Assembly (NCBI RefSeq): GCF_013283665.1
Contig: NZ_JABEKU010000001.1
Coordinates: 930,001-994,000 of the forward strand
DNA length: 64,000 nucleotides
Reading direction: 5' to 3'
Source: Ensifer sesbaniae
GTDB lineage: Bacteria > Pseudomonadota > Alphaproteobacteria > Rhizobiales > Rhizobiaceae
Of this stretch, positions 38,718-50,819 are shown piece after piece. A program made the translations under genes and the position numbers. The notes under the pieces are model-generated. The model ran no database searches. It worked only from the letters and a program-made list of their open reading frames with translations, and was not told the origin of the DNA. Numbering within the stretch: the first letter of the stretch is position 1; the number at the start of each line of letters is the position of its first letter.

Positions 38718-38913
38718 ACTTGCCGGCCAGCCGTTGGGACATCACGCGACAAGGTGCGACAGCGGACATGCATAGATGCCGCCGAGTTGCAGGTTTGCGC
38801 CACCTCCAGACCTTACCTCGGAAGCTGCGATCGACGCGTTTCGACCCATTGGTGCCGCTCGTCGATGCCGACAGGAAATTCCGGTGCTGGGATCCTCGGC
38901 TGTTGCCCAAGCC

Positions 38914-41364
38914 TCATTGCCCGGAGTTCTTCAATCGCCGAAGCTCCTGAACGAAGCGAGCGAGATCCTGATCGTTCGGGGTGAGCCGGAGCAACCGTTC
39001 GGCATAGTCGAGCGCGGCGACGAGATCGCGGCTATCGCGACTGAGCGTCGTCAGCGCCAGCAAAGTGTCCCGATCATGAGGATGACGCGCCAGACTCGCC
39101 TGCAGCACGGCAATCGCGTCGCCGGCGCGCCCGGCCGAATGCAAGGCGATCGCGTATGCATAGGCATATCGTGCCTGGTCGGGCGCGAGTTCGGCCGCCT
39201 GACGCAGTTCCGCAAGTGCCTCGTCGAACCGGTTGAGGCGCACGAGCGTCAAGCCGAGCGCATGATGAACGTCCGCGTCCTTCGGGAAGTCGGCGAGTGC
39301 AGCGCGCAACACTTGCTCGCTGTCGGCGTCCCGTCCGAGTTGCCTGTAGAGGTCGGCGAGATTGACTGCTGCCGGCGTGAATTGCGGACTCAAGCGCAGC
39401 GCAGCCTTGTATTCGGCTTGCGCCTCCGCAACGAGCCCGCGCTGGGCTAGGAAGGTCCCCAGCGCGCTGCGTGCCTCAGGGCGATCGGCATTGGTGCGCT
39501 GGGCGGCGATGAACTCGGCCACCGCCCGCTCGAAGCTATCGCGATCGGCTGAAGGCTGGCTTGCAGCCGGAACCGCCGCCAGCAGCGACACCGCCCTGAG
39601 GCGCACGCCGCGGACCGGGTCGGACAGAAGCGGCGACACCAGCGGCCAGAGCTGATCAGCGGGCACGCCTTCGAGCATATCGAGCCCACCGAGGCGCACC
39701 ATCGGGTCACGATCGGAAAGCCCGGATCGCGCAAGATCGACGTTGAGGGCGGACAAGTACGCGCTCAACTCGGTCAGTGCGCTGGCGTGAACGAAGGGCG
39801 ATGCGGCCGGGTCGCTGGCGACGGGGGCGAGAAGCTTGTCCGCATCGGGACGATCGGTCCACGCTGCATGGAATGCTTCAGCATAATTCTGAAATCCCTT
39901 GCGCTGCGGCCCGAACCAGCGCTCGACCGCCGCGGCTGCCCATTGCGCCGATTCCTCCCGATGGCAGTCGTTGCAGGCGTTGGGGGTGCCGAGTTTGGCT
40001 GACAGATCCGGTCGCGGGATGCGGAAGCTGTGATCATGCCGCTGGTCGATCACCATATAGGTGCGTTCTGGCATGTGGCAGGATGCGCATGCCAGCGGCG
40101 GGTTCGCCTTGTCGTGGTGGCGATGGGCAGCGGTCTCGTACGTCTCCGATGCGTGGCACTGTCCGCAGACGCCGTCCCCCGGAAGGCGCAGCGCGGCGCT
40201 GTGCGGGTCATGGCAGTCGCTGCAAGTGACGCCTCCGGCGAACATCTTGCTCTGCTTGAAGGGACCGTAGTTGTAGGTCTCCTCGACGTCGCGCATCTGG
40301 CCGTCGGCCTCAAACAGGCTGCGATCGATCGGCGAAATCCTGTGAGTGTCGGACAGCCACGTTCCGGGCACCCAATCCTCGGAGAATTGGCCGCGCCTCG
40401 CATGACACAGGCCGCAGGTTTCCACCTCCTTGCGCAGCAGCGGTGGCGATGCACTGCGCCGCGGCTTTCCCGTCCCGGTATCGTGTGACCAGCCGACGCT
40501 CGCCCGTTCGTCGAAGCGGACCCCTAGTCCCTTGTCCGGGCTTTCCGTCTTGCCGAACGGCCACCAGCTTTGGCGGTCGCGCGCCCAGGCGACGTGGCCG
40601 GAGCCCTTGCCGTGGCAGGCCTCGCAGCCGACGCTGATTTCGGACCAAGACGTTGCGAAGCGATCACTTGCGGCATCGTAGTTCTTGCGCACGCCAGTCG
40701 AGTGGCATTCGGCGCACATATAGTTCCAGTTCTGATTGGGCTTGGTCCAGTGCAGAATGTCGTCGTGACGGATTGGCTCGCCCGGATAGAGATGAAACCA
40801 GCGCTGTCCGCCTTGCTCCCTTGGGCGGCTGTCCCAGGCAATCGAAAGCGCCTGAATCCGGCCGTCCGGGAACTCGATCAGGTATTGCTGCAGGGGATCG
40901 ATACCGAACGTGTATTTGACTTCGAAGGTCGCCGGCTTGCCGTCCGGTCCGTCGGTTTCGACGAGGAATTTTCCACCCTTGCGGAAGAAGCGTGATTGTA
41001 CCCCGTAATGATCGAAACGCACGTCGTTGAAGTCGCCCCGCACGGAACCGTCGGTCGCGTGGTCCATCGCGAGCTTATGCTGCGAACCACGCCAGAGATT
41101 CGCTTCCGCGCCGTGGCACCCGGCGCAGGTCTCGCTCCCGACGAACGTCGCGGCAGAGGACGAGCCGCCCGTCTCGCGCGACACACGCGATGGCCAGATG
41201 CCATCGTTGACAAGCCAGAAGGCCATCGCGACGCCGCCCAAGACCATCGCCAGGATCGCAAGTTTGGCCCGGAGGGCGCGCGCCTGCTTGAAGCGACGCT
41301 GCACGCCAGCCGACTGCGGATGTGAGCGGGCGACCGGCTCGTGCTTACGGCTGGCTTTCGACAT
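38914..41364 (-). CDS. octaheme c-type cytochrome with HEAT/TPR C-terminus
   Basis: An 816-residue protein anchored by one N-terminal helix (about 33-52), the rest periplasmic. Eight CXXCH haem motifs lie at residues 80, 217, 247, 317, 381, 400, 426 and 464 (first Cys). Residues about 510-610 are HEAT-like (ASALTELSAYLSALNVDLA, VRGVRLRAVSLLAAV) and 620-810 are TPR repeats. The class is widespread in Bacteroidetes, Planctomycetes and marine proteobacteria; electron partner unknown. Multihaem cytochromes of this size are unusual in rhizobia. It opens an accessory block and is transcribed away from the sulfatase genes. The 279-bp gap to its right holds nothing clear. Confidence 0.9.
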   Translation of the reverse strand: MSKASRKHEPVARSHPQSAGVQRRFKQARALRAKLAILAMVLGGVAMAFWLVNDGIWPSRVSRETGGSSSAATFVGSETCAGCHGAEANLWRGSQHKLAMDHATDGSVRGDFNDVRFDHYGVQSRFFRKGGKFLVETDGPDGKPATFEVKYTFGIDPLQQYLIEFPDGRIQALSIAWDSRPREQGGQRWFHLYPGEPIRHDDILHWTKPNQNWNYMCAECHSTGVRKNYDAASDRFATSWSEISVGCEACHGKGSGHVAWARDRQSWWPFGKTESPDKGLGVRFDERASVGWSHDTGTGKPRRSASPPLLRKEVETCGLCHARRGQFSEDWVPGTWLSDTHRISPIDRSLFEADGQMRDVEETYNYGPFKQSKMFAGGVTCSDCHDPHSAALRLPGDGVCGQCHASETYETAAHRHHDKANPPLACASCHMPERTYMVIDQRHDHSFRIPRPDLSAKLGTPNACNDCHREESAQWAAAAVERWFGPQRKGFQNYAEAFHAAWTDRPDADKLLAPVASDPAASPFVHASALTELSAYLSALNVDLARSGLSDRDPMVRLGGLDMLEGVPADQLWPLVSPLLSDPVRGVRLRAVSLLAAVPAASQPSADRDSFERAVAEFIAAQRTNADRPEARSALGTFLAQRGLVAEAQAEYKAALRLSPQFTPAAVNLADLYRQLGRDADSEQVLRAALADFPKDADVHHALGLTLVRLNRFDEALAELRQAAELAPDQARYAYAYAIALHSAGRAGDAIAVLQASLARHPHDRDTLLALTTLSRDSRDLVAALDYAERLLRLTPNDQDLARFVQELRRLKNSGQ

Positions 41365-41643
41365 CGGCCCGGGTTCCCATTACAATCAAGTGCCGCTTCC
41401 TGCCCGTCAGTCTTTGAACACCCGCTTCCAATCGCGCTTCCTGTTCCCGTGATGTCGATTTGATGAGCAAGCCGCGGCCTTGACAAGGGGCAAGTCAAGG
41501 GTTTCGCGCTCGGCCACCGATGAAGCTCGATGGACAGCGATCGAAAATACACTGGCGCTGGCCATCCCGTCTTCTCGTGGTCTGCGGGCCCGAGGCTGAC
41601 CCCAGGCCCGCAGCCGGTTCGGGAGCATTGCCCGTCGCTCGGA

Positions 41644-43071
41644 CTATTGCGGCCCCGCCTGCACGTGGTGGACCGGGTTGCCGTCGACCGCCACGGCCTG
41701 TCCGGCGGCGCCGTCGCTCGCGGCCCCCTGGGCCGCCTTGAGCTTCTTGATGTCTTCCTCGGTCAGCTTGGGCCGATCGACCTTCAGCGTCAGCTTGTTG
41801 AGCTTGGCGGTCAGGGTAAACGGCGGCTGGTAGTCGGCGTCGTTGACACCGGTGAGCGTGTCCGAGCCGACATCGAAGCTTTCGTCCCACTGCAGGATCA
41901 TCGGCAGGGTGCGCTCCATCGTCTGGGTCGCGACGACCTTGCCGTCCACCTTGAGCGAGCCGGTGCCGGACCGGCCGAGTCCGCTCATGTCGTTGTAGGC
42001 GAGCGTGCCGGTGCCGAGCCCGTCATACTTGAAGTCGAACTCGAGGGTGTGTTGGCCGGGCGTCAGTGCGCCCGGGCCCTCCCACTTGACGCGCTTCAGG
42101 TCGACGAGGTTCCAAAGGAACACCGGCTTGCCCTTGAGCAGGTAGAAGCCGTAGCCGGCGAAGCGTCCGCCCGAAGTCACGATCATTCCCTCGGCGCCCC
42201 CTTCCGGCACATCGATATCCGCAGTGAAGGAATAGGAGCTGTTGAGGATGGCTGGCGAGTCGCCCTGCGGCAGCCCGGTCATCGGATGGATGTAGGTGAA
42301 CTCCGTGCGGCCGGCAGTGATGTTCGGGCGCGGCGCCACGATGCGGGCCGCCACCGAGGCGTCCATCGGGAAGACCTGGTATTTCTTCGCCTCTGCAATG
42401 AAGAGATCCTTCATCTCCTTGACCTTGTCAGGGTGCTGGTCGGCGATGTTCTGGGACTGGCTGAAATCCTTGGTGAGATCGTAGAGTTCGAGCACCTGGT
42501 TGTTCAGCGGGTCGGGATTCGCCGGACCGTATGCCTCCCACGGTGCGCGGTTAACTTTGGTGCTGAGCAGCCAGCCGTCGTTATAGAGCGCCCACTGACC
42601 CATCATCTCGAAATACTGGGTCTTGTGTCGGGTGGGCTCCTTGGCGTTCTCCTTATCGAAGGTGTAGGCGAAGCTTGTGCCCTCGATCGGCGCCTGCTTG
42701 ATGCCATCCACTGTATCCGGGGCGGGAATACCAGTCGCATCGAGAATGGTGGGCACCACGTCGATCACGTGCATGAATTGCTCGCGCAGCCCGCCCTTGT
42801 CCTTGATGCGGGCCGGCCAGGAGACCGCCATGCTCTGCCGGACGCCGCCGAGCCTCGACGCGTTCTGCTTGAACCAGGTGAAGGGCGTGTCGAAGGCCCA
42901 GGACCAGCCTGCCGACATATGGTTGTAGGTCTGCTCGGTGCCCCAGACGTCGTACCACTTCATCTGCACGTCGACTGGCATCTTGTTGATGCCGTTGAAG
43001 AAGGCGACCTCATTGGGGGTCCCGAGAGGGCCGCCTTCGGCACTCGTGCCGTTGTCGCCGTTGATATAGAC
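41644..43071 (-). pseudogene. arylsulfatase, N-terminal half missing
   Basis: C-terminal part of a type I sulfatase beginning at VYINGDNGTSAEGG (minus strand from 43071). It keeps the central DTPFTWFKQNASRLGG and the C-terminal beta domain but lacks the first about 370 residues: signal peptide, metal-binding Asp pair and the formylglycine motif CxPSR. The frame continues past 43071 only as antisense of the other sulfatase. The remaining frame is undamaged over 470 codons, so loss is recent or an assembly artefact. Paralogue of the next entry (roughly 55% identical by eye over the shared part). Confidence 0.82.
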
Positions 43072-43072
43072 G

Positions 43073-45271
43073 GTGCTGCTGATCATGACCGATGACCAGG
43101 GCTTCGGCGCGCCGAGCACCTTCGGCGGCGTCATTCCGACGCCAGCGATGGACCGGATCGCCAACGAGGGACTTCGATTCACGAATTTCCACTCGACATC
43201 GCTTTGCTCACCGTCTCGTGCGGCGCTGATCACCGGGCGCAACCATCATTCGGTTGGTTATGGGGTCGTCGGTGAAATCGCGACGGGGTATCCCGGCTAC
43301 GATTCGATCATTCCCATCGAAAAAGGCACGATCGGCACGATCCTCAAGGAGAATGGATACGCCACGTCGTGGTTCGGCAAGGATCACAACACCCCCTCCT
43401 ATCAGTCGAGTCAGGCCGGGCCGTTCCATCAGTGGCCGAATGGAATGGGCTTCGAATATTTCTACGGCTTCGTCGGCGGCGACGCCAGCCAGTGGCAACC
43501 GAACCTCTTCCGCAATACGACAGCGATCTTTCCCTTCGAAGGAAATCCCGGCTGGAACCTGGAAACGGCCATGGCCGACGAGGCAATCGGTTACATCAAA
43601 CAATTGAACGCGATCGCGCCCGACAAGCCCTGGCTCGTCTACTACGTGCCGGGTGCCACCCATGCACCGCACCATCCAACGCCGGAGTGGATCAAGAAGA
43701 TCAGCGACATGCATCTGTTCGATGACGGATGGAACAAGGTACGCGAGAAAATTTTCGCCAACCAGAAGCGGCTCGGCATCATGCCGGAAAACGCCAAGCT
43801 GACGCCTTGGCCGGATGGGCTGCCGCAATGGGATTCCCTCAGTTTCGCGGAGAAGAAACTCTTCATCAAGCAGGCGGATGTCTACGCCGCCTACCTCGCC
43901 TACGCCGACAATGAAATCGGAAGGCTCATCCAGGCGGTCGAGGACCTCGGCGAACTCGACAACACCCTGATCATCTACATCGGCGGCGACAACGGCGCGA
44001 GCGCCGAGGGCATGGTCAACGGCACGCCGAACGAGTTCACCACCTTCAACGGGGTTCCCGTGCCGGTCAAGGATCAGTTTCTCTGGTATCCCTTCTGGGG
44101 ATCGGAACGGACTTTCCCGCATTTCGCCGCCGGCTGGGCCTGGGCGATGGACACACCGTTCAAGTGGGTGAAGCAGGTGCCATCGCACTTCGGCGGGACC
44201 GCTCAAGGCATGGTCATGTCCTGGCCCGGACACATCAAGGATGCCGGCGGTATCCGCACGCAGTTCCACCACTTCATCGACATCGTGCCGACCATCCTCG
44301 AGGCGACCGGCATTCCCGCGCCGGAGGTGATCAACGGCATCAAGCAGGAACCGATCGAAGGCGTCAGCATGGCCTATACGTGGGAGAAGGCGAATGCGAC
44401 CGCCCCGACCAACCACACAACCCAATACTTCGAGATGCTCGGCAACCGTGCCATCTATCATGAGGGGTGGGTGGCAGCCACGACGCCGGCAACGCTCCCG
44501 TGGGAACTCAGCACCAAGACACCTCCCGACGTGATCACTGGCTACAATTGGGAACTCTACAACATCCAAGAGGATCCCACTCAGTCTACTGACCTCGCCG
44601 CCAAGATGCCGGACAAGCTCAAGGAGATGCAGGAGCTCTTCTATTCGGAAGCGAAGAAGTACAACGTCCTGCCGCTCGACAACTCGACGCTCGCACGCTG
44701 GAACACCCCTCGGCCGAGCCTTACGGCTGGACGGGCGGAGTTCACGTATTCTGGGGAATTGAGCGGCGTACCGGCCAGTGCAGCGCCCAGCACCCTGAAC
44801 AAGTCCTACACGATCACGGCTGAGGTCGAGATACCCGAGGGTGGCGCGGAGGGCATGATCGTCACCCAAGGCGGGCGCTTCGGCGGTTACGGCCTGTTCC
44901 TCAGCAAGGGCGAGTTCGGCTTCGGCCGAGGCAAGGTCGTGTTCCTCTACAACCTGCTCGACCTTAAGCGGACGACATGGGAGGGGCCGGAACTCGAGCC
45001 TGGCAACCACACGATCGTCTTCGACTACAAGGCGGCCGGCACCGAACTTGGTACGGGCGGTACGGGCGTCCTGACGGTCGACGGCAAGGAAGTGGCCACG
45101 AACTCCCTGGAGCACGGAATTCCGATCACGTTTCCCGAGGACGAAACCTTTGACATCGGTCAGGACACACGCACCGGCGTGGCGCTGCTCGAGTACCGCT
45201 ACGACACGCCATTCAAGTTCACCGGCAAGATCGACAAGCTGACATTCAAGTTAGAGTCCACGCAGCAGTGA
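43073..45271 (+). pseudogene. arylsulfatase lacking its signal peptide and start
   Basis: Type I sulfatase from VLLIMTDDQGFGAPSTFGGV onward, 732 codons. It keeps the metal-binding DD, the formylglycine motif in STSLCSPSRAALITGR (Cys 45 of the frame), GKDHN, and the central and C-terminal domains, but the export signal and about 30-50 first residues are absent. The first codons are GTG at 43073 or ATG at 43085, neither with a ribosome site. Sulfatases hydrolyse sulfate esters, normally in the periplasm. The frame directly abuts the truncated sulfatase on the other strand. It leads a run of same-strand genes to 50213, which would have lost its promoter. Confidence 0.8.
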
Positions 45272-45292
45272 GAGCGTTTTCGGGAGGCAGAC

Positions 45293-46792
45293 ATGAACAG
45301 CCACAATTGGGTTGTGACCCCGCTACTGCGCCGTCGCGATCTGGGTTCTGCCGCACTGGCGGTGGGCATCGCCGCGATCTTGGGGCCGCGGTTGGCGGCT
45401 GCCGAGGGCCTGCCTGAGAAAATCAGGAATGCACTGCTGGGCGAGTTCTCGGACCTGACCGACGACGCCCGCGAGGAGGCTGCCTATTACGTCGGCCTGG
45501 AATCCTACGTCTTCGGCTATCCGCTGGTCGTCATGGACGTCACCCGGGCGGTGCTGACAGCGGCGCCGGCGCCGAATGGCGAGGGCACGGCTGCCCCGAT
45601 CAACCAGCTTGCCAAGATGCCGCACTATGTCAGCCCGTATTTCACCAATGTCGTGAGGATCAGCCTCAATTCGCTGTGGACGACGGGTTGGCTCGACCTC
45701 GAGAAAGAACCGATTGTCCTGTCGGTTCCGGACACGCACGGCCGCTACTACGTGTTCTCGGTCATGAACATGTGGACGGACGTGTTCGCCTCGATCGGCA
45801 AACGCACGACCGGCACCGCGCCCGGCAGCTTCCTCATCGCCGGCCCAAACTGGAATGGTACTTCACCCGTCGGCATCAAGGAGACCTTCCGCTCGTCGAC
45901 CCGCTACGCCTGGGCCCTCGGGCAGACCCAGGCGAACGGGCCTGATGATTTTGCCGCGGTCAACGCGCTGCAGGCAGAATACAAGCTCACGCCGCTCAGC
46001 GCGTGGGGCACACCGTATTCACCGCCAGCCAATGTGCCGGTCGACGGCTCGGTTGCCCTCACGCCCACCCCGCCGATCCAGGTGGCGAACATGGACGCCG
46101 GAACCTTCTTCAACCGGCTGGCCATGGTGATGAAGGATAATCCTCCCCGCCCTGCCGATGCAAATGCCGTGTGGAAGCTCGCCAAGCTGGGGATCGTTTC
46201 CGGTGTGAAGTTCGACATCGAACAGATCGACCCGGCTGTTGCGCGTGGCCTCAAGCGCGCGGTCAAGGAGGTACAGGTCCTCATGAACGAGGGCACCACC
46301 AAGATGAAGAATGTGAACGGCTGGATCAGGCCGCCCAATCTGGGCCGTTACGGCACGGACTACGAGACGCGCACTGGCATTGCCATGGCAGGTCTTGGCG
46401 CTGATCTGCAGGAAGACACGATCTACCCGCTTGCCTTTGTCGACGGCGACGGCAATCGCCTCGACAGCGCCAACAAATACGTTCTGCGCTTCGACAAGGG
46501 GCAGCTTCCCCCGACCAATGCGACCTGGTCCGTCTCGCTTTACCAGGGGCCGAACTATGTCCCCAATCCGCTCAATCGCTACGACATCGCGCCCTGGATG
46601 GCGCTGAACTACGGCCCGGACGGTTCGCTCGAAATCTACATCCAGAAGGATTCGCCCGGGAAGGACAAGGAAGCCAACTGGTTGCCGGCTCCACCCACGG
46701 GCGAGTTCAACATCATCATCCGAAACTACTGGCCCAAGGAGGAGGCACTCAACGGCGCTTATGTGAATCCGCCGATCAAGAGAGTGCCGTGA
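45293..46792 (+). CDS. DUF1254/DUF1214 exported protein
   Basis: A 499-residue protein with an N-terminal twin-Arg signal (LLRRRDLGSAALAVGIAA), then DUF1254 (FGYPLVVMDVTRAVLTAA, YYVFSVMNMWTDVFASIG) and a C-terminal DUF1214 (WSVSLYQGPNYVPNPLNRY, GEFNIIIRNYWPKEEALNG). GGGAGG precedes the ATG. Starts 21 bases after the sulfatase frame, so same transcript. The family is common in soil proteobacteria; no biochemical function is established to my knowledge. Confidence 0.88.
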   Translation: MNSHNWVVTPLLRRRDLGSAALAVGIAAILGPRLAAAEGLPEKIRNALLGEFSDLTDDAREEAAYYVGLESYVFGYPLVVMDVTRAVLTAAPAPNGEGTAAPINQLAKMPHYVSPYFTNVVRISLNSLWTTGWLDLEKEPIVLSVPDTHGRYYVFSVMNMWTDVFASIGKRTTGTAPGSFLIAGPNWNGTSPVGIKETFRSSTRYAWALGQTQANGPDDFAAVNALQAEYKLTPLSAWGTPYSPPANVPVDGSVALTPTPPIQVANMDAGTFFNRLAMVMKDNPPRPADANAVWKLAKLGIVSGVKFDIEQIDPAVARGLKRAVKEVQVLMNEGTTKMKNVNGWIRPPNLGRYGTDYETRTGIAMAGLGADLQEDTIYPLAFVDGDGNRLDSANKYVLRFDKGQLPPTNATWSVSLYQGPNYVPNPLNRYDIAPWMALNYGPDGSLEIYIQKDSPGKDKEANWLPAPPTGEFNIIIRNYWPKEEALNGAYVNPPIKRVP

Positions 46793-46823
46793 CCAACATG
46801 CACCGGGAATGTGAGGTATCCTC

Positions 46824-47219
46824 ATGACGGTACGCCTGCTGCTGCGTGTAACCGCAATCGGCGAGGGTGTGGTGGGGCTGGCATTCCTGCTCGTCCCGAA
46901 TATCCCAACGCTGGTCCTTTTCGGGCAGCCACTCGACAGCGCGCTTTCGGAGATCATCGGCCGCTTCGTAGGCGCAGCCCTGATCGCCTTAGCCGTAGCC
47001 TGCTGGCGAGCCGCAGAGGACACGCAAAGCAGCGTCACTTCGGGCCTCATCCTTGCAATGCTGATCTACGATGTGGTCGCTGCGGCCCTGCTGGCCTATG
47101 CGCGCTTCGGGCCTGGCTTGGCCGGCATCGGTTTGTGGGTGGGGCTTATCGGCCATCTGGTGCTGGCAATCTGGTGTGTCGCAAGCCTCCGCGAAAACCG
47201 CCTTGCAACTGGGAAATAA
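46824..47219 (+). CDS. four-helix membrane protein of unknown function
   Basis: A 131-residue protein with four hydrophobic segments (TAIGEGVVGLAFLLVPNI, EIIGRFVGAALIALAVACW, LILAMLIYDVVAAALLAYA, GIGLWVGLIGHLVLAIWCV). GAGG 7 bases before the ATG; 31 bases after the DUF1254 gene. Resembles small DoxX/DUF4345-like membrane proteins, but assignment is not firm. Confidence 0.75.
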   Translation: MTVRLLLRVTAIGEGVVGLAFLLVPNIPTLVLFGQPLDSALSEIIGRFVGAALIALAVACWRAAEDTQSSVTSGLILAMLIYDVVAAALLAYARFGPGLAGIGLWVGLIGHLVLAIWCVASLRENRLATGK

Positions 47220-47235
47220 CGAAGGAGCCGCAGTC

Positions 47236-47817
47236 ATGCAGAACAATGGGCTTAACGAAAGCACGAATTCCTTACGTCGCGGCGTGATCTTGGCGGGGGC
47301 CATCACCGCCGTGGCAGGTCTGGTATCTCAACTGGGCTTGCTCGCCACTGCCCGCGCGGACGAAGCGGAAGCCAAGCCAATGCTCATGTTCGTGCAGCTC
47401 TCGGAGGGCTTCAAGCACGATGAGCAAGCAAAGACCATCCGGCTCGTGAACGTCGACTCCAACACCCTCTACTTTGCCGATCGGCCGGAGCGGATTGCCG
47501 GCCATATCAAGTTGGACCTCTACATGGAGGAATGGACGTCGAAGGCGGGTGCGGACAATTTCAAGAACGATCCGCCAAATGCTACGCTGTCGGTCTACGA
47601 GCCGGGCCAGCCCAACAATACCGCAGCCGTCATCGAAATCAGCGATCCGAAGATCGACGGCCGCGACCTCGTGTATGGCTACAAACTCATCGAGGGAAAA
47701 CTGCCGGCCGCAGGCGAGCAAACCGCACTGTTCATAGACTGGATCGGCGTGGGCGGCGGCGTTGGCTTCGGCTACCACGGCGTGGGTGTCGGGTTCCGGG
47801 GACCGGGGTGGCGTTGA
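47236..47817 (+). CDS. exported protein of unknown function
   Basis: A 193-residue protein. The N-terminus has a twin-Arg-less hydrophobic signal (GVILAGAITAVAGLVSQLGLL ending near ATARADEAEA), then a soluble domain (LMFVQLSEGFKHDEQAKTIR, LYFADRPERIAGHIKLD) and a Gly-rich end. GAAGGAG precedes the ATG at 47236. Part of the same-strand run with DUF1254. Family not recognised. Confidence 0.72.
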   Translation: MQNNGLNESTNSLRRGVILAGAITAVAGLVSQLGLLATARADEAEAKPMLMFVQLSEGFKHDEQAKTIRLVNVDSNTLYFADRPERIAGHIKLDLYMEEWTSKAGADNFKNDPPNATLSVYEPGQPNNTAAVIEISDPKIDGRDLVYGYKLIEGKLPAAGEQTALFIDWIGVGGGVGFGYHGVGVGFRGPGWR

Positions 47818-47853
47818 GCCGGTGCGGACCCGAATTGCGAAGAGGAGGCAGGG

Positions 47854-48009
47854 ATGAACAATTCCCCGGCAAATGGCAATATACGTTGCGCATCAAGTCA
47901 TGGGACACCAGCACCGAACCTGATGCAAAAGGCTTCGCCTTTGCCCCCGCCGGGGTGCGTGCAAATCCGGGATGCGTCCGGAAACATCGTGGGCTACCGA
48001 TGCCCCTAG
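47854..48009 (+). CDS. possible 51-residue protein
   Basis: ATG at 47854 is preceded by an excellent AGGAGG five bases upstream. The frame ends 10 bases inside the next gene. The product is Pro/Ser-rich and closes with GCVQIRDASGNIVGYRCP. It has no signal or known domain. The ribosome site is the main support; another frame in the same stretch is also open. Confidence 0.4.
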   Translation: MNNSPANGNIRCASSHGTPAPNLMQKASPLPPPGCVQIRDASGNIVGYRCP

Positions 48010-49304
48010 AGCGATTTTTCAGATCGAACGGTTGGCAATTGCCGGTCGCTTTAATCGTGTTCGCGGCGCTGCTCGTGGCATGCGCAAGCCGCCCGAGGGG
48101 TGTACTGCAGCCGGTGGCAGCCGCGCCGTCGACCAGCCAAGTGGACATGCTGGTTGCGACCATGCGCGACCGATCTGAAAACCCGGGCGAAATGTTCAGC
48201 GGTGAGCGTGCGCCGGCGGCGGCCTTTGCGGAGATCACGGTATCGATTCCGCCCGCCAATCGCCGCAAGGTCGGCGAAGTCGCCTGGCCGCGCAGGCTCC
48301 CGCCCAATCCGGAAACGGATTTTGCTGCGATCAAGGCCGAGCAGCTCGACAAAACGGCGGCCGAGAAGTGGCTGAGCAGTTCCGTGCGCAAGAGCCAGAA
48401 CCGCAGCGTGCTCGTCTTCATCCACGGCTTCAACAACCACTTCGAGGATGCCGTCTTCCGTTTTGCCCAGATCATGCACGATTCGAGGGCGCACACCGTC
48501 CCTCTGCTGGCGACATGGCCGTCGCGCGGGCATCTGCTCGACTATGGCTATGATCGTGAAAGCACCAATTACACGCGCAATGCGGTCGAGAATATGTTCC
48601 AGTATCTGGCACGCGATCCCGAGGTCAAGGAGGTCTCGATCCTGGCCCACTCGATGGGAAACTGGCTGGCGCTGGAATCCTTGCGCCAGATGGCCATCCG
48701 CAACGGCGGGCTGCCGGCCAAGTTCAAGAATGTCATGCTGGCCGCCCCTGATGTCGATGTCGACGTCTTTCGTTCCCAGATTGCCGACATGGGCAAACAG
48801 CGCCCGCGCTTCACGCTCTTCGTCTCGCGCGACGACCGGGCGTTGGCGGTGTCGCGGCGCGTCTGGGGCAATGTTCCCCGCCTGGGTGCGATCGATCCGG
48901 AGCAGTCCCCCTACAAGGAGGAACTCGCGGCAAACGACATCACTGTCATTGACCTCACCAAGCTCAAGGAAGGCGACAGGCTGCACCACACCAAGTTCGC
49001 GGAGTCACCGGAGATCGTCCAACTGATCGGCGCGCCCCTCTCGACCGGGCAGACTCTGACTGACAGCCGCACAGGTCTTGGCGACACGATCGTGACCATG
49101 ACCGCCGGCGCGGCACATACGGTCGGGACCGCCGCCGGTCTCGTCGTTGCTGCTCCCGTCGCCGTCATCGACCAGAACACCAGGGAAAACTATGGCCGCC
49201 ATGCCGGGGCGCTGGTCGGACCTTCCGGACAAGCAAAGCAAAGTAGTACCAATCCTGACTGCAGTAACATGAGTCAGTCGAGGGGCGGATATTGCAGCCG
49301 GTAG
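48000..49304 (+). CDS. lipoprotein alpha/beta hydrolase (DUF900 family)
   Basis: A 434-residue protein with an N-terminal lipoprotein signal ending in LLVACAS (lipobox LVAC). The hydrolase domain has SVLVFIHGFNNHFEDAVFR (oxyanion HGFN) and the nucleophile elbow ILAHSMGNWLALE (GxSxG type, HSMGN), and belongs to the DUF900 group. Substrate unknown; probably an esterase on the periplasmic side. ATG at 48000 overlaps the preceding small frame. A longer in-frame start (47532) would run antisense-free through the previous gene and is rejected. Confidence 0.83.
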   Translation: MPLERFFRSNGWQLPVALIVFAALLVACASRPRGVLQPVAAAPSTSQVDMLVATMRDRSENPGEMFSGERAPAAAFAEITVSIPPANRRKVGEVAWPRRLPPNPETDFAAIKAEQLDKTAAEKWLSSSVRKSQNRSVLVFIHGFNNHFEDAVFRFAQIMHDSRAHTVPLLATWPSRGHLLDYGYDRESTNYTRNAVENMFQYLARDPEVKEVSILAHSMGNWLALESLRQMAIRNGGLPAKFKNVMLAAPDVDVDVFRSQIADMGKQRPRFTLFVSRDDRALAVSRRVWGNVPRLGAIDPEQSPYKEELAANDITVIDLTKLKEGDRLHHTKFAESPEIVQLIGAPLSTGQTLTDSRTGLGDTIVTMTAGAAHTVGTAAGLVVAAPVAVIDQNTRENYGRHAGALVGPSGQAKQSSTNPDCSNMSQSRGGYCSR

Positions 49305-49421
49305 ATGCGATATTCGAATACGCGTCAAAAAGTGTTTTGCCAAATTACGGCCTTCAATCATGATCTTATTGGCAGGCGAATCGAGATAGGTCGTAAGCAG
49401 CGAACATTATCGGGGGATATA

Positions 49422-50213
49422 ATGAAATCTTGCATCATTCGAACTCTAGTCTCCATCGGAAGCTGCCTCATCGCCAGCGGCGTCATGGCCGCGGACATTC
49501 GATCTCCGATGACGCCGGCGGTTCAGGAGACGACGACGGAAAGCGGCTGGACGTTTTCATTCGCGCCCTATTTTTGGGCGGCGGGATTGTCGGGGGACGT
49601 TGCACAGTTTGGGCTGCCGGAAGCCCATGTCGACGCCAGTTTCAGCGATATCTTCGATCACCTCGATTTCGGGGCGATGGCGATCGGCGAGGCGCGCTAT
49701 GGTCCCTACAGCATCTTCGGCGATGTGATCTACACCAAGATTTCCGGTCAGTCCGGCACACCGAGGGGCATTCTTGCAGAGGATGTCGAACTGAAGACGG
49801 AGACCTTCGCCGGCCTGCTCGGCGCCGGTTACGCGGTCTTTGAAGACAGCTCCGCGCGGCTCGATATCGTCGGTGGCCTACGCGTGTGGTCCGTCGAAAG
49901 TGAACTGTCCTTCAGCGGCGGCATTCTCGATGGGGTATCTAGGACCGATGACGCAACCTGGGTCGACGGCTTGGCCGGCTTCAAGGGCACCTATGCGATC
50001 ACGCCGGAAATCTACCTAACCGGCTGGGGGCTCGTTGGCGCCGGCGGCGCAGACCTCGACTGGGACGTCGCCGCGGCGATCGGGTACCGCTTTAGCGAGA
50101 CTATCTCGGCCGTCGCCGGCTACCGCGCTCTGGGTGTGGACTACAGCAAGGATGGATTTGTGTTTGACGTCGTGCAGCAAGGGCCGATGCTGGGGCTTGT
50201 CGTGCGGTTTTAG
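49422..50213 (+). CDS. outer-membrane beta-barrel-like protein
   Basis: A 263-residue exported protein. The signal peptide MKSCIIRTLVSIGSCLIASGVMAAD is followed by alternating beta strands (WTFSFAPYFWAAGLSGDV, GLLGAGYAVFEDSSARLDI, ISAVAGYRALGVDYS) and a C-terminal aromatic residue (LGLVVRF), as in outer-membrane proteins. GGGGG about 5 bases before the ATG at 49422. Possibly a porin-like or surface protein acting with the exported proteins upstream. Confidence 0.8.
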   Translation: MKSCIIRTLVSIGSCLIASGVMAADIRSPMTPAVQETTTESGWTFSFAPYFWAAGLSGDVAQFGLPEAHVDASFSDIFDHLDFGAMAIGEARYGPYSIFGDVIYTKISGQSGTPRGILAEDVELKTETFAGLLGAGYAVFEDSSARLDIVGGLRVWSVESELSFSGGILDGVSRTDDATWVDGLAGFKGTYAITPEIYLTGWGLVGAGGADLDWDVAAAIGYRFSETISAVAGYRALGVDYSKDGFVFDVVQQGPMLGLVVRF

Positions 50214-50745
50214 GGAACAAGGCGGCGAATTCCGAGCATAGCCCTTGATCAGCTCGAGGCCGTCCTCCGGGCGACCACGCCGTCAGGGGCGGTGCTTAGG
50301 TGGACACGGCACGGAGGGGCGGTAAATTCCGGACCGGCTCGGACGAGTACTTCTCCGGAAGGCTCCCGTACACGACGGGTTGGTGGATCGTTTCTGGATC
50401 GATGTCATCTCGTCATCGATCGTGCCTTCGCCGCTTTCGTGAACGCCATGGGCAAGGCTGTTCGAAAGATGGCCGTTGGTTTGGGTGAACAGGTGGGCCA
50501 GAAAACGCACGTCCGCTGTTGGTGCGTATGGCAGCCGTCACAGACCACGTGGCTGAACTTCCGCTCCCCCCACCTGCTATCACCGTCGAGAGCAGCGGAG
50601 CTAAAGGTCGTCTTTGGCGCCAATTTCATACCATGGCATCGGGCGGCCATGTGTCCGGTTTTCCTGGGCATCAGGTCGCCAAGGATGCCAAAGCGGGGTC
50701 AGGCACGACTGGAAAATCAAGGAATTAAGGGGATTTAGCGAAAAT
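50214..50745 (+). other. 532-bp degenerate region left of tRNA-Gln
   Basis: No intact gene. Minus-strand frames at 50405-50671 (with CDGCH) and 50283-50510 look like broken coding remnants in two frames, which may be debris of a lost gene at the edge of the accessory block. No integrase or clear tRNA-end duplication was found. Confidence 0.45.
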
Positions 50746-50819
50746 TGGCTGGGGAACCTGGATTCGAACCAGGACTAACGGAGTCAGAGTCCGCTGGTCT
50801 ACCGTTAACCTATTCCCCA
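50746..50819 (-). tRNA. tRNA-Gln (anticodon CTG)
   Basis: Minus-strand cloverleaf starting TGGGGAATAGG and ending with CCA. Anticodon arm GCGGA-CTCTGAC-TCCGT gives anticodon CTG. T-arm CCTGGTTCGAATCCAGG. Its 3' end faces the accessory block to the left. Confidence 0.96.

Follow-up and report, generated by a model that had tools for sequence, protein, structure and literature searches.

The window analysed, a 64,000-bp stretch of the Ensifer sesbaniae genome, contains a 12-kb island in which the remnants of two arylsulfatase genes, here called A and B, lie back to back on opposite strands. The coordinates of the remnants, of their junction and of the neighbouring genes are given in Table 1. 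The minus-strand frame containing B runs from 43242 to 41644 and is sulfatase-like only from the residues VYINGDNG (43071) to its end. The plus-strand frame containing A opens at 43070, directly after a TAG stop (43067-43069), and resembles sulfatases from VLLIMTDD (43073) onward.

Table 1. Features of the arylsulfatase island and its right-hand flank (window coordinates).
Feature	Coordinates	Strand	Remarks
12-kb island	38760..50744		absent from relative G009, where ~58 bp lie between the flanks
Multihaem cytochrome c / TPR protein	38914..41364	-	downstream of B; B-then-cytochrome order also in G708
B remnant	41644..43071	-	last 475 codons of a ~856-codon PAS-like arylsulfatase; open frame; full-length orthologues at 79-87%
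Junction	43071..43073		alignable B sequence stops at 43070/43071 and alignable A sequence begins at 43073; the CG at 43071-43072 is ambiguous or filler
Accidental in-frame extension of the B frame	43072..43242	-	57 codons antisense to A from a TTG start; not sulfatase sequence
A remnant	43073..45271	+	732 codons remain of a ~810-codon PAS-like arylsulfatase; the 78 codons of signal peptide and N-terminal linker are lost; TDD, CSPSR and GDNG kept
DUF1254/DUF1214 protein	45293..46792	+	after A; A followed by a DUF1254 remnant also in R. mesoamericanum
Two small genes	46824-47219, ~47218-47817	+	also follow A in R. mesoamericanum, at 81-82% identity; Thiobacillus L147 has counterparts after A
DUF900 alpha/beta hydrolase	48000-49304	+	right end of island (48000..50213)
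Outer-membrane-like protein	49422-50213	+	right end of island
tRNA-Gln(CTG)	50746..50819	-	island abuts its 3' end

An earlier note on this DNA had claimed that B is homologous to sulfatases only from VYINGDNG, that A is homologous only from VLLIMTDD, and that the two breakpoints touch. DNA alignments to independent relatives break at the same bases, and the intact orthologues continue past both cuts. When positions 41500-45500 were compared by blastn, homology to A began at 43073 for R. binae and E. adhaerens plasmids, and homology to B ended at 43068 for R. leguminosarum 3B. Against the chromosome of R. mesoamericanum STM3625, B could be aligned to 43070 and A from 43073, and the intervening bases 43071-43072 showed a clear fit to neither parent. 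No microhomology of note was seen at the join (43071-43073), which is blunt and lies between unlike sequences. Between the B and A remnants there is nothing that could be a mobile element, and an insertion of that kind at the junction was rejected. Hairpins were also considered as a cause of the breakpoints, by sliding-window folding of 60-mers of the intact R. mesoamericanum genes. The A 5' breakpoint fell in the top 1% of stable 60-mers and the mid-gene breakpoints (see below) only in the 12th to 27th percentile, and this cause was rejected.

The full-length B orthologue of R. mesoamericanum starts MKLTRLMSLASAVAALAL... and has 381 residues ahead of VYINGDNG. The earlier note had the N-terminal half of one gene removed; the head of B is indeed gone, with its size amended to ~381 codons, i.e., 45% of the gene. 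The missing part includes the signal peptide, the metal-binding DD and the CSPTR nucleophile motif. The remaining B sequence matches only SGSH_C, the C-terminal domain, in Pfam, with no Sulfatase match, and thus lacks the CxPSR nucleophile and the N-terminal metal ligands by which type I (formylglycine) PAS-like arylsulfatases are recognised. Because the nucleophile and metal ligands are lost, B is, as judged from its sequence, dead, having been disabled outright.

A is far more complete. The R. mesoamericanum A orthologue, starting MKIVRSFLACAGFVALGC..., has 78 residues ahead of VLLIMTDD, and these 78 codons, the signal peptide and linker, are what A is without, as the earlier note had proposed for the signal peptide. 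By alignment, the core shared with the solved Pseudomonas arylsulfatase (1hdh/4cxk) begins at the PN-VLLIMTDD strand, which is the A cut site, and the whole catalytic core is retained. The Pfam Sulfatase domain is matched over residues 2-414 (2.6e-53), and TDD, CSPSR (residue 45) and GGDNG are all present, so that A carries the CxPSR and DD/DNG metal-site motifs of a type I (formylglycine) arylsulfatase domain. An export signal is lacking: the full-length relatives inspected start with signal-peptide-like sequence, and in A the signal peptide and linker are absent and the frame is closed by the stop at 43067. Further, no promoter-like site was seen around the new A start when positions 42700-43400 were scanned, and no ribosome-binding sequence was seen ahead of the GTG at 43073 or the ATG at 43085. 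Because its signal peptide and own promoter have been lost, A is most likely silent, or at best yields a cytoplasmic protein; it is leaderless and its expression has probably been lost.

The missing B head, the missing A head, and A were used as queries against the whole E. sesbaniae assembly (6.9 Mb, 5 contigs, 100% completeness). Only A, B and distant sulfatases were found, and a reciprocal junction joining the A and B heads was not found. With neither head present anywhere in the assembly, a reversible inversion, and with it an invertible, phase-variable DNA switch, is ruled out as far as this assembly goes. As in a pseudogene formed by deletion, relatives continue past the truncation and the lost part is absent from the genome. 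The earlier note had also named the same short forms in close relatives as a finding that would speak against it. None was seen among the genomes compared. Close B orthologues in the 16 genus, 395 family and 397 order genomes searched are long frames with intact heads, and A is full length in nine close genomes of the same genus. Among 148 distinct A/B loci, counted with frame-shifted and contig-edge loci set aside, headless forms occur only in this genome, in a same-genus relative, G010 (A), and in R. leguminosarum 3B (B).

Relaxed constraint or secondary lesions are expected of old pseudogenes and are not required of recent ones. Constraint on the remnants was examined in two ways, by leave-one-out conservation and by pairwise dN/dS, against 68 distinct orthologues of A and 25 of B. 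A has no changes at invariant columns and one change at 412 near-invariant columns (orthologue median 4); for B the changes number one at 183 invariant and three at 259 near-invariant columns (orthologue median 3.5). Pairwise dN/dS was typical, at 0.09 for A and 0.15 for B. Neither remnant, then, shows stops, frameshifts or excess change at conserved sites, in agreement with the earlier claim that both remaining frames are otherwise intact and with one of the two readings offered for it, a very recent event. If every change at conserved columns is taken to be neutral, Poisson statistics give rough upper bounds on the neutral substitutions per site accumulated after constraint ceased: 0.005 for A and 0.013 for B. 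The clean state of both frames marks the event as recent, under about 1% neutral divergence on this simple and rough estimate; with a dS of about 0.7 to the nearest orthologue, it is young on the dS scale. Continued selection on A would likewise be compatible with its lack of decay.

Where the island meets the 3' end of tRNA-Gln(CTG), G009 has about 58 bp and G001 a different, 2.6-kb segment, so that the end of this tRNA gene looks like an integration hotspot. No attachment-site repeat was found for the 38760-50744 island, no integrase-like ORF was noted among its listed frames, and the phage collection compared gave no match. Intact A arylsulfatases, including those of R. mesoamericanum STM3625 (L130) and Ensifer sp. 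Root278, share 90% protein identity over the whole remnant, and A orthologues about 69-91% identical occur across very distant bacteria, i.e., Rhizobium, Accumulibacter, Thiocapsa, Synechococcus, Flavobacterium and Planctomycetes (L113-L192). Conservation of A over such distances is unusually high and suggests that A has spread widely by horizontal transfer; given such spread, the deletion could have occurred either before or after the island arrived. In a Synechocystis sp. B12 plasmid (L008, 7779-10037) a B orthologue (72-86% identity) is frameshifted at several places. In a plasmid of R. leguminosarum ATCC 14479 (L273, 6434-7450) a gene judged by eye from its translation to be formylglycine-generating-enzyme-like lies between a full-length sulfatase and a divergent third sulfatase.

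Three further independent sulfatase truncations were seen in relatives. In G010 (L077, around 9740 of the reverse complement) a deletion of 1,145 bp, measured against the syntenic G002, takes the promoter and first ~376 codons of an A orthologue, a natural beheading by deletion in a syntenic relative. It resembles the present case in being clean, with no evident microhomology, and in breaking a few codons from the position homologous to the B break; it differs in affecting one gene only, and a different gene at a different locus. On plasmid pRL3b2 of R. leguminosarum bv. trifolii 3B (L007, 9333-9760), B breaks off near codon 357 and stands head-to-head with another sulfatase, joined at the latter's signal peptide. 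There, in contrast to the present junction, B adjoins a third, distant sulfatase, which has also been truncated and ends after ~105 codons, and B carries an extra frameshift, because of which the 3B headless B is probably older. In R. mesoamericanum STM3625 (L224, 9160-9693) a single internal deletion has taken residues 84-636 out of a second A copy, which lies beside the cytochrome/TPR gene. The DUF1254 gene that follows the intact A of that strain is also mostly deleted. Two of the three truncations break within about 25 codons of the B break, so that three independent mid-gene breakpoints fall at codons ~357 (3B B), ~376-381 (G010 A) and ~382 (B here). We consider it very improbable that codons 357-382 of these large arylsulfatase genes are a genuine breakage hotspot; the near-coincidence of the three breakpoints is a post-hoc curiosity from few cases and not hotspot evidence.

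The best-supported account of the junction, which we hold with moderate confidence, is a single deletion across a divergent, head-to-head B/A pair. The island, acquired horizontally, would have carried two full-length secreted PAS-like arylsulfatase genes, B reading leftward and A rightward. One deletion, leaving a blunt junction like those made by end joining, would then have taken away ~381 codons from the start of B, ~78 codons from the start of A and the promoter region between the two genes. The loss amounts to no less than 1.38 kb of coding DNA, to which the intergenic part is to be added. A layout like the presumed ancestor's is found in Thiobacillus sp. RI_561 (L147), where B (857 aa, minus strand) and A (820 aa, plus strand) stand intact and head-to-head across a 1.3-kb gap, with homologues of the same two small genes downstream of A. 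The likeness is one of orientation and downstream gene order; unlike E. sesbaniae, the Thiobacillus MAG is from a different class and has both genes intact. From such a layout, the present junction would require one deletion of about 2.7 kb. Head-to-head is, however, not the commonest layout. Among loci that contain both genes, a tandem arrangement on a single strand prevails; it occurs in at least eight relatives, with R. mesoamericanum, Phyllobacterium trifolii and two Bradyrhizobium among them. R. mesoamericanum STM3625, the nearest syntenic relative, has the same genes downstream of A as E. sesbaniae, and differs in its full-length A with signal peptide and in its order, which is A, the DUF1254 remnant, the two small genes, and then B. 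Because the tandem layout is so common, inversion plus loss is a live rival, although we judge it unlikely. A tandem ancestor would have been inverted between breakpoints in the A head and the middle of B, and the reciprocal junction later lost, or two sulfatase blocks would have been fused by illegitimate recombination. In keeping with such a history, B-then-cytochrome (G708) and A-DUF1254-small genes (R. mesoamericanum) form separate conserved blocks, the alignment with R. mesoamericanum likewise stops at 47822, where B would start, and the headless B of the 3B plasmid, joined to a third sulfatase at the latter's signal-peptide region, is a fusion of similar kind. At least two events would be required, however, neither head can be traced in the genome, and the head-to-head layout is documented in Thiobacillus. 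The single deletion is favoured for its economy, since a tandem ancestor needs both inversion and loss. The earlier proposal of one deletion across a divergent pair is probably right: the scar is real and an intact head-to-head pair exists, although the greater frequency of tandem pairs keeps inversion with loss in play.

The earlier note had offered, as an alternative, the collapse during assembly of a long inverted repeat formed by the two genes. A and B are never identical over more than 13 consecutive nt, and their best inverted arms reach 70% identity over 135 nt; with so little in common, there are no near-identical arms at the join and nothing on which an assembly could collapse, and this alternative was rejected. 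An artefact of any kind, whether collapse or a chimeric join, would mean that both genes are intact in the living strain, which would explain the lack of decay, and one genome of the species was compared. Against this stand the slight sharing between A and B and the blunt joining of unlike sequences within a five-contig, 100% complete assembly, in which a chimeric join is unlikely; overall, we consider an artefact improbable. Still more doubtful is the idea that truncated A has been kept as a working cytoplasmic enzyme, the deletion being adaptive or neutral rather than a loss. The full core with all its catalytic motifs, a possible GTG start and the lack of decay in A are what such an enzyme would show. 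However, the lack of decay is accounted for by recency, the start is without the promoter-like and ribosome-binding sequences looked for above, and signal-peptide-like sequence stands at the start of the full-length relatives inspected.

In sum, the junction is a real rearrangement scar, an instance of ordinary pseudogenisation and a known kind of gene damage; a literature search on the feature gave nothing specific. On the single-deletion account, one event disabled two genes by taking out their shared upstream region, and it is clean and recent, caught before decay. For annotation the locus carries a warning: of its two "arylsulfatase" open frames, one is a dead C-terminal half and the other a leaderless enzyme. 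The locus also illustrates the fluidity of sulfatase islands in rhizobia.
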